Assembly: GCA_913058295.1 (NCBI GenBank)
Contig: CAJXRD010000005.1
Location: forward strand, 1 to 64,000
Direction of reading: 5' to 3'
Origin: an uncultured Flavobacteriales bacterium
GTDB taxonomy: Bacteria > Bacteroidota > Bacteroidia > Flavobacteriales > Flavobacteriaceae
Length of the DNA: 64,000 nt
The first letter of the stretch is position 1; each line of letters begins with the position of its first letter. Positions 19,315 to 64,000 of the stretch are shown piece by piece. Under the pieces are notes generated by a model. It searched no databases, was not told the DNA's origin, and saw only the letters and a program-made list of their open reading frames with translations. Both the position numbers and the translations under genes were made by a program.

Positions 19315-19345
19315 TTGCATAAAATTTCAATTTTCACTACTTTTG
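19315..19345 (+). promoter_or_regulatory. Promoter of the fused keto-acid dehydrogenase E1 gene
   Basis: A -33 element TTG (19315-19317) and a -7 box TACTTTTG (19338-19345) are separated by 20 bp, matching the Bacteroidota sigma-A architecture. The ATG at 19370 lies 24 bp after the -7 box. Confidence 0.7.
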
Positions 19346-19369
19346 CAAAACCTAATACCACACAATTTT

Positions 19370-21784
19370 ATGCAAACAAACCCACAAACAAACGGTAAAT
19401 TATCATTCGAAGATTTTAAATCTGAAATTCTTAATGACTATAAAATCGCTGTAACCAGTAGAGAATGTAGTTATTTGGGACGTAGAGAAGTTTTAACTGG
19501 GAAGGCAAAGTTTGGTATTTTTGGTGATGGTAAAGAAGTACCTCAATTAGCTTGGGCTAAGGTATTTAAAAAAGGAGATTGGCGTAGTGGTTATTACCGA
19601 GATCAAACCTTTATGATGGCTATTGGGAAGTTAACGATCCAACAATTTTTTGCAGGGTTATATGGGCATACCGATATAGAAGCAGATCCAATGAGTGCTG
19701 GAAGACAAATGGGAGGTCATTTTTCTACCCATACGATCAACGAAGATGGTTCATGGAAAGATCTTACCAAACAAAAAAATAGTAGCCCTGATATTTCTCC
19801 AACCGCTGGGCAAATGCCTAGATTAGTAGGATTGGCTCAGGCTTCAAAAATATACAGAAACGTAAAAGAATTAGAAGGATATACTTCTTTTTCAGATCAC
19901 GGAAATGAGGTCGCCTGGGGTACCATTGGTAACGCAAGTACGAGTGAAGGACTTTTTTGGGAATCCATTAATGCTGCTGGAGTAATTCAGATTCCTATGG
20001 TTATTAATGTTTGGGATGACGAGTATGGAATTTCAGTTCACGCAAAATACCAAACAACCAAAGAAAATATTTCAGAAATTCTAAAAGGATTTCAACGTAC
20101 CGATAATGAAAAAGGATATGAAATTATTCGTGTACATGGTTGGGATTATCCAAGTTTAATTGAAGCATACCAAAAAGCTTCTACCATTGCTAGAGAAGAG
20201 CATGTACCTGTATTAATTCATGTAAACGAACTTACACAGCCTCAAGGACACTCCACTAGTGGATCTCACGAACGTTACAAGGACAAAAATAGATTGGCTT
20301 GGGAAAAAGAATGGGATTGTAATAAAAAATTACGAGAATGGATTATTGCTAATGATTTCGCAAGCGAAGAAGAACTATCTGGATTAGAAAAATCTATTAA
20401 GAAAGAAGTTCGTGAAGGGAAAAGTGCGGCTTGGAAAGCTTTTTTAGCCCCACAAGTTCAAGAACAAAAAGAAGCATTAACTTTAATTAATAATGCTGCT
20501 GAAAAAAGTGCCAATAAAGTTTTTATAAATAAAGTTGTAGAATTATTATCTTCTAAAAAAGAGCCTATACGAAGAGAAATAATTGGTGCAGCAAGAAAAT
20601 CATTACGTTATTTAATTGGTGAGAATACCGTTGAGAAAAAACAACTTAATGATTGGATCGAAAACTATTTCGAAGTCATCGAACCTAAATACAGTGCGCA
20701 TTTATATTCTGAAGCAATAGAAAATGCAAAAACTATTTCAGAAATAAAACCGATTTATAATGATAATTCTGAAGATGTGGACGGTAGAATTATTCTTAGA
20801 GATAATTTTGATGCTATTTTAACCAGACACCCAGAAGTGTATATTTTTGGTGAAGATAGTGGAGCGATCGGAGATGTAAATCAAGGCTTAGAAGGATTAC
20901 AAGATAAATTTGGTGAAGAGCGTGTTGCTGATGCAGGAATTAGAGAAGCTACCATTTTAGGGCAAGGTATAGGGATGTCTATGAGAGGCTTACGCCCTAT
21001 TGCAGAGATTCAATACTTAGATTATATCCTTTATTGTTTACAAATCATGAGTGATGATCTTGCAACAGTTCGTTACCGTACCAATGGCAAACAAAAAGCA
21101 CCCCTTATTGTTCGTACTCGTGGGCATCGTTTAGAAGGAATTTGGCACAGTGGATCTCAAATGGGTGGATTAGTTCATTTACTACGTGGAATGTATATTT
21201 TAGTTCCTCGTGATATGACAAAAGCGGTTGGATTTTATAATACTCTTTTAAAAACAGACGAACCTGCTTTAGTAATAGAATGCTTAAATGGGTACCGTTT
21301 AAAAGAAAAAATGCCTTCCAACCTAACAGAAATTAGAACTCCTATTGGAGTTGTTGAAACAGTTAAAGAAGGAAGTGATATCACCCTAGTTTCTTACGGA
21401 AGTACTTTACGTATTGTACAAGAAGCAGCTATTGAATTATTACAAGTAGGAATTAACGCTGAAGTGATAGACATTCAAACACTATTGCCATTAGACATCA
21501 ATCATGATTTAGTAAAAAGTGTTGCCAAAACAAATAGATTATTGGTAATTGATGAAGATGTACCCGGTGGAGCATCCGCTTATATTATGCAAACTATTTT
21601 GGATGATCAGAATGGATATCAATATTTGGATAGCAAACCCCAAACCCTAGCTGCAAAACAACATCGACCTGCCTATGGTACAGATGGGGATTATTTTTCT
21701 AAACCACAGTTGGAAGATATTTTCGAAAAAGTGTATGCAATGATGCATGAAGCAAATCCTAGTGATTTTCCAAAACTTAGATAA
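19370..21784 (+). CDS. Fused 2-oxoacid dehydrogenase E1 (alpha-beta), branched-chain type
   Basis: 804 residues from the ATG at 19370; an in-frame TTG at 19343 lies inside the promoter. The first ~460 residues are the E1-alpha half (AGRQMGGHFSTH, WGTIGNASTSEG, VWDDEYGIS) and residues ~470-804 the E1-beta half (FGEDSGAIGDVNQGLEGLQ, GMSMRGLRPIAEIQY, IDEDVPGGASAYIMQ). It would decarboxylate 2-oxoacids with thiamine diphosphate as part of an E1-E2-E3 complex; branched-chain substrates are the usual assignment. The TPP/Mg motif reads GNA-x26-DD (N188, D216-D217) instead of GDG-x26-NN. No E2 or E3 gene is adjacent. Confidence 0.88.
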   Translation: MQTNPQTNGKLSFEDFKSEILNDYKIAVTSRECSYLGRREVLTGKAKFGIFGDGKEVPQLAWAKVFKKGDWRSGYYRDQTFMMAIGKLTIQQFFAGLYGHTDIEADPMSAGRQMGGHFSTHTINEDGSWKDLTKQKNSSPDISPTAGQMPRLVGLAQASKIYRNVKELEGYTSFSDHGNEVAWGTIGNASTSEGLFWESINAAGVIQIPMVINVWDDEYGISVHAKYQTTKENISEILKGFQRTDNEKGYEIIRVHGWDYPSLIEAYQKASTIAREEHVPVLIHVNELTQPQGHSTSGSHERYKDKNRLAWEKEWDCNKKLREWIIANDFASEEELSGLEKSIKKEVREGKSAAWKAFLAPQVQEQKEALTLINNAAEKSANKVFINKVVELLSSKKEPIRREIIGAARKSLRYLIGENTVEKKQLNDWIENYFEVIEPKYSAHLYSEAIENAKTISEIKPIYNDNSEDVDGRIILRDNFDAILTRHPEVYIFGEDSGAIGDVNQGLEGLQDKFGEERVADAGIREATILGQGIGMSMRGLRPIAEIQYLDYILYCLQIMSDDLATVRYRTNGKQKAPLIVRTRGHRLEGIWHSGSQMGGLVHLLRGMYILVPRDMTKAVGFYNTLLKTDEPALVIECLNGYRLKEKMPSNLTEIRTPIGVVETVKEGSDITLVSYGSTLRIVQEAAIELLQVGINAEVIDIQTLLPLDINHDLVKSVAKTNRLLVIDEDVPGGASAYIMQTILDDQNGYQYLDSKPQTLAAKQHRPAYGTDGDYFSKPQLEDIFEKVYAMMHEANPSDFPKLR

Positions 21785-21789
21785 GCAAA

Positions 21790-21815
21790 ATAGGATTTTT
21801 AAATAATTATCCTAT
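21790..21815. repeat. Short inverted repeat after the E1 gene
   Basis: ATAGGAT (21790-21796) and ATCCTAT (21809-21815) form a 7-bp stem with a 12-nt loop, 5 bp after the E1 stop. No T-tract follows, so it is at most a weak terminator or part of the asnB leader region. Confidence 0.35.
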
Positions 21816-21845
21816 ATTTACAATACAAATCAAATAGATACGACA

Positions 21846-21890
21846 ATGTTTTATTCTAATATTAATAATAACTTTAATAATACCCCTTAA
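21846..21890 (+). CDS. Asn-rich leader peptide of asnB
   Basis: A 14-codon frame starting at ATG 21846 and ending at TAA 21888-21890 encodes MFYSNINNNFNNTP. Six of the 14 codons are Asn (five AAT, one AAC), clustered at codons 5, 7-9 and 11-12. It lies 127 bp before asnB and ends 27 nt before a strong terminator stem. The position and composition match the leader peptides of ribosome-mediated attenuators, where scarcity of the charged tRNA stalls the ribosome. No Shine-Dalgarno is visible, which is usual in this phylum. Translation is not proven. Confidence 0.7.
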   Translation: MFYSNINNNFNNTP

Positions 21891-21892
21891 CA

Positions 21893-21951
21893 AAAACTTG
21901 TCGAGAACATATATGCGCCTGTCAAGTTTTAATTTGACAGGCTTTTTTTTT
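21893..21951 (+). promoter_or_regulatory. Asparagine-responsive transcription attenuator (antiterminator/terminator)
   Basis: The terminator is GCCTGTCAA (21917-21925) paired with TTGACAGGC (21934-21942), followed by nine Ts (21943-21951). A competing strand begins 3 nt after the leader stop. AAAACTTG (21893-21900) pairs perfectly with CAAGTTTT (21923-21930), and CTTGTCGA (21897-21904) pairs with TTGACAGG (21934-21941) with two G-U pairs. A ribosome finishing the leader would cover 21893-21904 and let the terminator form. One stalled at the Asn codons would leave that strand free and favour readthrough into asnB. The mechanism is inferred; the pairings are seen. Confidence 0.68.
21917..21951 (+). 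terminator. Intrinsic terminator in the asnB leader
   Basis: Perfect 9-bp stem, extendable by one G-U pair, with an 8-nt loop and a run of nine Ts. It stands 65 bp upstream of the asnB start and transcription toward asnB must pass it. Confidence 0.88.
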
Positions 21952-22016
21952 GTGCTTCGACAAGCTCAGCAACCAAAAAAAACAAGCTCAATAATAATAA
22001 TAAAAAAAAAAAAATC

Positions 22017-23693
22017 ATGTGCGGAATTGTATGCGCTTTTAACCTAAAGCAAGTCTCAGAGAAACTAAGACCTCAAATATTGGGAATGTCCAAAAACATC
22101 AGACATCGTGGTCCCGATTGGAGCGGTATTTTTAGTAATGACAAATCTATTATGGCTCACGAAAGATTGGCTATCGTAGATCCTACTTCAGGGAAACAAC
22201 CTTTGTTTTCTGAAGATCAAAATTTTGTATTGGCTGCAAATGGGGAAATTTATAATCATTTAGAATTGCGTAAACAATTAGAAGACGAATCGAAAAACAC
22301 TTATAACTTTCAAACAAAGTCAGATTGCGAAGTCATTCTCGCTTTATACCAAGAAAAGGGAGTTTCTTTTTTAGATGAGCTCAATGGTATTTTTGGTTTT
22401 GCCTTATATGATGTGTCTAAAGACGAATATTTTATTGCTCGAGATCATATGGGAATTATCCCTTTATATATGGGTTGGGATGAAAACGGCACTTTTTATG
22501 TTGCTTCCGAACTAAAAGCATTAGAAGGAGTTTGTACTAAAATTGAACTCTTCCCTCCTGGTCATTATTTACATAGTTCGGATGGGGAATTGAAACGATG
22601 GTACCAAAGAGATTGGCAAGATTATGGCGCTGTAAAAGAGAATGAAACTAATATTAAAGAGCTTCGTAAAGCTTTAGAAGACGCGGTACACAGACAGTTA
22701 ATGAGCGATGTACCTTATGGAGTTTTGCTTTCTGGTGGATTGGATTCTTCCATAACCTCAGCAATTGCAAAAAAATATGCAGAAAAACGTATAGAAAGTG
22801 ATGATAAAGATAAGGCCTGGTGGCCTAGACTTCACTCCTTTGCTATAGGATTGGAGGGCTCTCCAGATTTAGCTGCTGCAAGAAAAGTAGCCGATCATTT
22901 AGATACTGTACACCATGAAATTAAATTTACCATACAAGAAGGAATAGATGCTTTGCATGATGTAATATATCATTTAGAAACCTATGACATTACCACTATT
23001 CGAGCTTCCACTCCTATGTATTTATTGGCAAGAGCAATTAAAGCTATGGGAATTAAAATGGTGCTTTCTGGCGAAGGAGCCGATGAGATTTTTGGAGGCT
23101 ATTTGTATTTTCATAAAGCTCCATCCGCAAAAGATTTTCATGAGGAGACGGTTAGAAAATTAGATAAATTACATATGTACGATTGCCTTCGTGCAAACAA
23201 ATCATTAGCAGCCTGGGGAATTGAAGGAAGAGTTCCTTTTTTAGATAAAGAATTTATGGATGTTGCGATGCGTATCAACCCACAGGATAAAATGATTAAT
23301 GGCGAACGGATGGAGAAATGGGTCCTTAGAAAAGCTTTTGAAGATCTACTACCCGAAAGTGTGGCATGGAGACAAAAGGAACAATTTAGTGATGGTGTTG
23401 GCTATAGCTGGATTGATACTTTAAAAGAAATGGTAGAAAAAGAAGTTACCGATGAGCAATTAGCAAACGCGCATTATAAGTTTCCTATTCAAGCTCCAAC
23501 CAGCAAAGAAGAGTTTTATTATCGTTCTATTTTTACGAAACATTTTCCTAGTGATACTGCGGCTTGGTCTGTACCACAAGAAGCCTCTGTTGCTTGTAGC
23601 TCTAAAATAGCATTAGAATGGGATGAAAGTTTTAAAAACATGAACGATCCAAGTGGAAGAGCAGTTGCTAATGTTCATGATGATGCCTATTAA
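22017..23693 (+). CDS. asnB: Asparagine synthase (glutamine-hydrolysing)
   Basis: 558 residues. Cys2 after the initiator Met is the class II glutaminase nucleophile (MCGIVCAF). The N-terminal amidotransferase half has RHRGPDWSG and NGEIYNH. The synthetase half has the pyrophosphate loop LLSGGLDSS, LSGEGADEIFGGY and the C-terminal GRVPFLDKEFMDVAM. It converts aspartate, glutamine and ATP to asparagine, glutamate and AMP. Length matches AsnB-type enzymes. It is preceded by a leader peptide and terminator at 21846-21951 that suggest control by asparagine supply. The coding start follows a very A-rich leader. It converges with menB, 14 bp away. Confidence 0.96.
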   Translation: MCGIVCAFNLKQVSEKLRPQILGMSKNIRHRGPDWSGIFSNDKSIMAHERLAIVDPTSGKQPLFSEDQNFVLAANGEIYNHLELRKQLEDESKNTYNFQTKSDCEVILALYQEKGVSFLDELNGIFGFALYDVSKDEYFIARDHMGIIPLYMGWDENGTFYVASELKALEGVCTKIELFPPGHYLHSSDGELKRWYQRDWQDYGAVKENETNIKELRKALEDAVHRQLMSDVPYGVLLSGGLDSSITSAIAKKYAEKRIESDDKDKAWWPRLHSFAIGLEGSPDLAAARKVADHLDTVHHEIKFTIQEGIDALHDVIYHLETYDITTIRASTPMYLLARAIKAMGIKMVLSGEGADEIFGGYLYFHKAPSAKDFHEETVRKLDKLHMYDCLRANKSLAAWGIEGRVPFLDKEFMDVAMRINPQDKMINGERMEKWVLRKAFEDLLPESVAWRQKEQFSDGVGYSWIDTLKEMVEKEVTDEQLANAHYKFPIQAPTSKEEFYYRSIFTKHFPSDTAAWSVPQEASVACSSKIALEWDESFKNMNDPSGRAVANVHDDAY

Positions 23694-53120: not shown

Positions 53121-53214
53121 GTCATTCAGAACGCATTGAAGAATCTCATTATCACAAAATATAGATTCTTCGGTCGCACCCTTCGACAAGCTCAGGGAAC
53201 ACCCTCTGAATGAC
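53121..53214. repeat. Palindromic repeat element, second complete copy
   Basis: Left end GTCATTCAGAA (53121-53131) and right end TCTGAATGAC (to 53214), inner arms TGAAGAATC and GATTCTTC. The right half contains CTTCGACAAGCTCAG (53181-53195), a 15-mer also found at 21955-21969 in the asnB leader. Confidence 0.85.
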
Positions 53215-63926: not shown

Positions 63927-64000
63927 TCGGGATGAGAGGATTCGAACCTCCGATCTCTGGTCCCCCAGACCAGCACTTTAAACCGGACTAAGCTACATCC
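63927..64000 (-). tRNA. tRNA-Pro (GGG), 5' end cut by the window edge
   Basis: On the minus strand GGATGTAGCTTAGTCCGG begins the gene, missing about two bases. The anticodon stem-loop CTGGT-CTGGGGG-ACCAG gives anticodon GGG. The T-arm GGTTCGAATCC and acceptor CATCCCG with discriminator A end at 63927. The CCA end is not encoded. Confidence 0.93.

Follow-up and report, generated by a model that had tools for sequence, protein, structure and literature searches.

We identified, upstream of asnB in an uncultured member of the Flavobacteriaceae, an element that on its sequence is highly likely to be a ribosome-mediated transcription attenuator sensing charged tRNA-Asn, and asnB would very probably be turned on only when the ribosome is short of asparagine. 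Its parts, their conservation, the alternative pairings and the spacing can be read from the DNA, and from there we infer where transcription starts, that the ribosome stalls, that the pairings compete kinetically and that the element responds to asparagine. The element lies within the window, by which we mean the entire 64,000-nt stretch that was analyzed (Table 1).

Table 1. Positions of the asnB leader features in the window.
Feature	Position	Strand	Details
Promoter-like -7 box TATATTTAC	21813-21821	+	From sequence; similar box in relatives, by eye
Strand 1 (likely protector), CGACAA	21841-21846	+	Overlaps first base of leader ATG; minimum-free-energy fold
Partner of strand 1, UUGUCG	21898-21903	+	Minimum-free-energy fold
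Leader frame MFYSNINNNFNNTP with stop	21846-21890	+	ATG at 21846; TAA at 21888-21890
Strand 2, AAAACTTG / AAAACUUG	21893-21900	+	From third base after stop; antiterminator with 21923-21930
Terminator hairpin	21917-21942	+	Arm 3 21917-21927; loop 21928-21931; arm 4 21932-21942
Nine-T run, intrinsic terminator tail	21943-21951	+
asnB, presumed controlled gene	22017-23693	+	ATG at 22017; NF006949, PF00733

In the proposed mechanism, RNA polymerase would initiate upstream of the leader and produce the leader RNA. With ample Asn-tRNA, the ribosome would pass the Asn codons and reach the stop codon, masking strand 2, and strand 3 would then pair with strand 4 and terminate transcription at 21943-21951, before asnB. 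With scarce Asn-tRNA, the ribosome would stall on an Asn codon with its leading edge just short of strand 2, which could take strand 3 before strand 4 exists, so that no terminator would form and asnB would be transcribed. If the leader were left untranslated, strand 1 could hold strand 2 and termination would be favored.

The asnB leader region

Six of the 14 leader codons specify Asn (five AAT and one AAC, starting at 21858, 21864, 21867, 21870, 21876 and 21879), just as the earlier note on this DNA had counted. Among 698 short frames (ATG starts, 9-26 codons, both window strands, nested starts included), with a mean Asn content of 4.9%, the leader was the sole frame with at least 40% Asn. 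Eight short frames in the screen precede a terminator, and the leader alone among them is Asn-rich. Because the screen was devised once the feature had been seen, we regard conservation as the stronger test.

The earlier note had described a 9-bp terminator stem followed by nine Ts; the T run stands, but the stem has 11 pairs around a 4-nt loop. Its claim that a strand starting just after the leader stop could pair with either terminator arm was borne out by eye, with 21893-21900 forming eight Watson-Crick pairs with 21923-21930, and 21897-21904 pairing with 21934-21941 by use of G-U. The RNA from 21824 to 21953 folded with an energy of -25.1 kcal/mol (z -4.67), and none of 200 shuffles did equally well. 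The gene downstream makes the very amino acid that the leader counts, also as first proposed: its product is a glutamine-hydrolysing asparagine synthase B (NF006949, 938.6 bits against a cut-off of 499; PF00733 matched too).

The promoter-like box upstream of the leader follows the TAnnTTTG type of the Bacteroidota -7 consensus. Transcription would start at about 21825-21830, downstream of this box, and by eye the stretch from 21952 to 22016, where a start would speak against an attenuator according to the earlier note, contains no TTTG-type box. The element probably extends upstream to the promoter-like box and strand 1 (21813-21846). Directly behind the terminator, at 21955-21969, we also observed a 15-mer, CTTCGACAAGCTCAG, that recurs at 53181-53195 (0 of 100 shuffles); it includes TCGACAAG, the complement of CTTGTCGA (21897-21904).

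Window-type leaders in relatives

A scan of genome contigs, from which the best 80 asnB loci were retained (two with too little upstream sequence), yielded at least nine with a recognizable leader of the window type (L004, L005, L006, L007, L022, L037, L041, L046 and L072); L006 belongs to Aequorivita aurantiaca and L046 to Planktosalinus lacus. Further sequences were drawn from 59 relatives and from an exact-pattern scan of 397 genomes of the family, in which TARCARAAACTTGTC occurred at 36 sites. Fourteen of these sites, window included, lay before asnB, and all 14 combined an Asn-rich frame with what by eye is a terminator; the window and L139 among them, and also L143, were known beforehand. 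The other 22 sites had no start of asnB inside 800 nt and by eye lacked the arrangement.

We aligned 28 window-type sequences, including the window (beyond the stop codon, 27 rows are distinct); they share ancestry, and counts made on them are of non-independent events. Frame and terminator occurred together in 28 of 28, with leaders of 11-19 codons that contained 3-10 Asn, the weakest being those of L089 (3 of 11 codons) and L046 (3 of 12). Leader length and the other residues drifted across the set while the Asn codons were kept, and the strand after the stop codon was near-invariant, with CAAAAACTTGTC in most. Two of the findings that the earlier note had named as speaking against an attenuator, loss of the Asn codons and a terminator kept without its Asn frame, did not appear among the 28, a set gathered by strand-2 sequence and by eye, so that loci that lost both frame and strand 2 may be missed. 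An AT-rich promoter-like box ending in TTTA or TTTG, roughly 25-45 nt before the leader ATG, was seen by eye in 16 of 17 aligned sequences (the exception was L006).

We also searched 395 genomes of the order with model R1. The top three scores, 75.9, 51.2 and 50.5 bits, belonged to the window, L217 and L218. L217 precedes asnB, stands behind MFTSVINNNFNNNNAKT and has different arms, while the L218 stretch is, by eye, that of L046. The window's own genome gave one match at E ≤0.01. Matches at this threshold occurred in 64 of the 395 genomes, with 30 loci inspected, and across the order they were mostly ordinary terminators at ≤47 bits.

In a survey of 170 asnB loci, among them 3 whose start was not located, 2 with scant upstream sequence and several same-species pairs, an Asn-rich frame with a terminator was found in 41 by a script whose thresholds were chosen once the feature had been seen, and in two more by eye (L110 and L192). 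Nine others had a hairpin and T run without an Asn-rich frame, and the remainder lacked the combination. Flavobacterium-labeled asnB genes in this survey had no such leader, save L005, a metagenome bin labeled Flavobacterium whose AsnB groups with the window's genus. A survey of the phylum gave an asnB match at E 1e-120 in 42 of 296 genomes, and the Asn leader was absent, by eye or script, from ten of its more distant upstream stretches.

Terminator, antiterminator and protector pairing

The terminator arms of the window type were paired in 97.3% of cells, compared with at most 45.3% for slid versions. Both partners had changed in four pairs (matched by 9 of 500 shuffles) and in 20 cells (matched by 0 of 500), and further pair types showed no excess over shuffles (430 of 500). 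Arms that changed together were GCCTGTCAAG with CTTGACAGGC and GCCCGTCAGG with CTTGACGGGC. The antiterminator was paired in 99.5% of cells, with one pair double-changed, in two sequences; its covariation was weak (12 of 500 shuffles were as high) because the strand hardly varies. The covariation that the earlier note had proposed to look for was present in the terminator and slight in the antiterminator.

On average over the 28 sequences, pairing between the stretch before the start codon and strand 2 exceeded that of shuffles, with a mean z of -1.54, versus +0.35 for a control further upstream; individually, p was ≤0.05 in 8 of 28. Two solutions for this putative protector recurred, GACAA and ACAAGU, and by eye neither was present in L046 or L007.

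Leaders of other design

Leaders of unrelated sequence were found before other asnB genes. In one genus, that of genome G028, asnB was present in 22 of 23 genomes and its start was located in 21. A leader of a second type preceded 20 of these 21 genes; L205 lacked one, and L204 fell outside the count. The layout is typically M..NNN..NNN...., then GTAG, then a terminator, for example AAGGTCTACT..AGTAGGCCTT. In this type the protector consists of the Asn codons themselves, AATATCAGA pairing with TCTGGTATT; 86.7% of cells were paired, a figure lowered by two of the 20 rows, L203 and L206, that look shifted by one codon. Both partners had changed in three protector pairs (a number reached in 1 of 500 shuffles), two of them in L201. 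The second-type terminator was 97.5% paired, and the antiterminator was 95.7% paired with covariation not above shuffles.

In a separate family, that of G043, a third kind of leader was present at three of four asnB genes, L209 being without, and its strand 2 lies within the last leader codons. The weakest of these is the leader of L110, with 4 Asn in 23 codons, below the script threshold. We built a tree of 87 AsnB proteins, hand-chosen (27 with a window-type leader, 12 of the 20 with the second type, 3 with the third and 45 leaderless) and by a quick method that left 28 of 84 inner branches with support below 80. In this tree the 27 proteins with a window-type leader formed one clade (SH-aLRT 99), and the second and third types sat apart from it. 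The leaderless asnB genes of L205 and L209 lie inside or beside the two clades otherwise bearing leaders and make natural comparison cases.

The leader types may share an ancestor and have undergone fast rewriting and losses, or they may have separate origins. We lean toward the view that, within Flavobacteriales, asnB came under Asn leader control, or had such a leader rewritten past recognition, on three or more occasions, and that no more was kept than the gene, the Asn codons and the spacing between the last of these codons and the competing strand.

These comparisons bear on what the attenuator would sense. The leader of ermC senses a global slowdown of translation, according to PMC2965389, and an attenuator before asnB might similarly respond to slow translation in general, or to the nascent peptide itself, rather than to asparagine. 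We consider this very unlikely, as Asn is the residue kept in three unrelated leader types, each before an asparagine-making gene, and the remaining peptide residues are not conserved between the types.

Spacing and folding

For spacing, strand 2 was defined as the best helix with the first arm of the terminator. Strand 2 began 13-19 nt after the start of the last Asn codon in 46 of 51 leaders, and in 49 of 51 when three of them were taken by the Asn run. The distance was 13-17 nt in 24 of 28 window-type leaders, the outliers being L046 at 21 nt, L127 at 10, and L135 and L136 at 9 (these last three end in NGNP and measure 15-16 by the Asn run). The second type ranged from 14 to 19 nt in 20 of 20, and the third gave 16, 17 and 20 nt (L111 being the 20). 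The leader of L190 is two codons longer than those of most relatives, with an Asn-to-strand-2 distance still of 17 nt. The footprint of a ribosome reaches some 12-13 nt downstream of its A site. Given this reach and the spacing, a ribosome stalled at the last Asn codon would leave strand 2 free, and one at the stop codon would mask it.

We then considered RNA cut before arm 4. For 50 of the 51 leaders, the stalled state was lower than the stop-codon state by 2 kcal/mol or more; the exception, L123, had its hairpin misplaced by the script and agreed with the others in a separate calculation. Once the full hairpin had been made, 6 of 7 examples favored the terminator energetically, even when strand 2 was left free, and the switch must therefore be kinetic. 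Spacing, competing strands and folding before arm 4 together support the trp/his-type geometry proposed at the outset.

The upstream gene and known RNA elements

Upstream of the leader lies a 2-oxo acid dehydrogenase gene (19343-21784), with 61 nt between the end of its frame and the leader ATG, and the window is AT-rich at 32% G+C. It could be argued that the terminator merely ends this upstream gene and that the Asn frame is an AT-rich by-product, but we consider this extremely unlikely. In relatives, the gap between the end of the dehydrogenase match and the leader ran from 74 to 952 nt in 23 of 27, and the match was absent from the upstream stretch in 4 of 27 (L087, L095, L097 and L022, where contig ends are possible), yet the distance from leader stop to asnB start stayed at 79-187 nt across the window-type set. 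A promoter-like box lies between the dehydrogenase gene and the leader, and as noted just one of the 698 short window frames reaches 40% Asn, which argues against a by-product.

A T-box, as controls asnB in Firmicutes, or a riboswitch or protein-binding leader with an incidental Asn frame has a nearly negligible probability, given that Rfam at the gathering score found one tRNA at the window end and nothing else there, and likewise one tRNA and nothing else in L188, L208, L041 and L111, that the 17 matches at a relaxed threshold were all far under gathering scores with no T-box among them, and that the room between stop codon and hairpin in the window is 26 nt. The tRNA gene, at 63927-64000, runs past the end of the window.

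Asparagine supply

The genome that holds the window is 97.6% complete, and we searched it for other genes of asparagine metabolism. No match to AsnA was found in it, and a second PF00733 match, scoring at the cut-off, was not convincing as another synthetase. It follows that asnB is probably the sole internal source of asparagine, and charged tRNA-Asn would thus be a sensible signal. The genome encodes an asparaginyl-tRNA synthetase (asnS; 584.4 bits, cut-off 342.6), and for the large acetolactate synthase family nothing scored above the cut-off. The window's AsnB was closest to AsnBs of uncultured Flavobacteriaceae. Seven genomes of the window's genus had no asnB match (G001, G005, G007, G008, G010, G012 and G018), and because four of the seven are rated 90-93% complete, a real loss of asparagine synthesis is possible.

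Discussion

With the asnB element, asparagine would be added to the signals of the textbook ribosome-sensing switch, and this in a phylum for which the literature covered here offers no more than hints of such switches. It gives a clear and cheap prediction of how asparagine supply is controlled in these bacteria, and for annotation it would account for a short frame and a terminator that are otherwise overlooked. Three unrelated sequences with nearly equal spacing make the idea of the ribosome as a ruler testable by comparison. If the leaders did originate or were rewritten several times, they would be a natural set for telling attenuator features kept by selection from those free to drift, and asparagine, which is very common among amino acids, would join those sensed by leader peptides.

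Hints from the phylum include short frames reminiscent of attenuation leaders in B. thetaiotaomicron (PMC7366714), and in Flavobacterium psychrophilum leader-peptide clues before amino acid operons, with 5' elements at pheA and hisG that are common to other genera, of the Flavobacteriaceae in the case of hisG (PMC9723704). According to a 2010 study, Proteobacteria and Actinobacteria were the only groups in which its authors knew leader peptides for amino acids to have been demonstrated, and the study added Firmicutes (PMC2965389). The words asn and asparagine are absent from the main text of PMC9723704. The terms asparagine codons, leader peptide and attenuation all occur in PMC5009743. The earlier note had suggested that the element may be undescribed; as far as our searches reach this holds for asparagine specificity, but attenuation in flavobacteria had already been suggested (PMC9723704). 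An asparagine leader peptide was found neither in Rfam at the gathering score nor among the literature matches listed, a set that stands apart from the older comparative studies cited in PMC4833913. The element thus seems to be a classic mechanism with a new amino acid.

Several known systems can be set beside it. In Firmicutes, asnB is controlled by a T-box, with the same gene and the same signal, charged tRNA-Asn; the T-box binds the tRNA directly, whereas the sensor of the asnB element would be the translating ribosome. The operon leaders of F. psychrophilum come from the same bacterial family and have the same proposed mechanism (PMC9723704). Within the window's own genome, L214 (contig C20, near 10580) is a candidate histidine attenuator: some 160 nt ahead of hisG it has the His-rich leader MTFIQLHHHHFHICPQAKC and, behind that, a strong terminator; organism and arrangement of leader and terminator are shared with asnB, but the residue is His and the sequence unrelated.

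The closest parallel is with the trp and his attenuators of enterobacteria, which share with the asnB element a short frame rich in codons for the product, antiterminator and terminator strands and, probably, a protector strand (scheme in PMC1183508), an intrinsic terminator before the structural gene, and a strand 2 masked by the ribosome at the stop codon. In the trp scheme timing decides, and theory holds that a common residue lowers the sensitivity of an attenuator (PMC1183508); by that theory lower sensitivity would be expected here, as Asn is a common residue, at 5.4% of 3780 codons. The asnB element differs in counting Asn instead of Trp or His, with asnB as the first gene. No sequence relation was seen, and strand 1 of the window type lies at the start codon, whereas theirs lies in the control codons.
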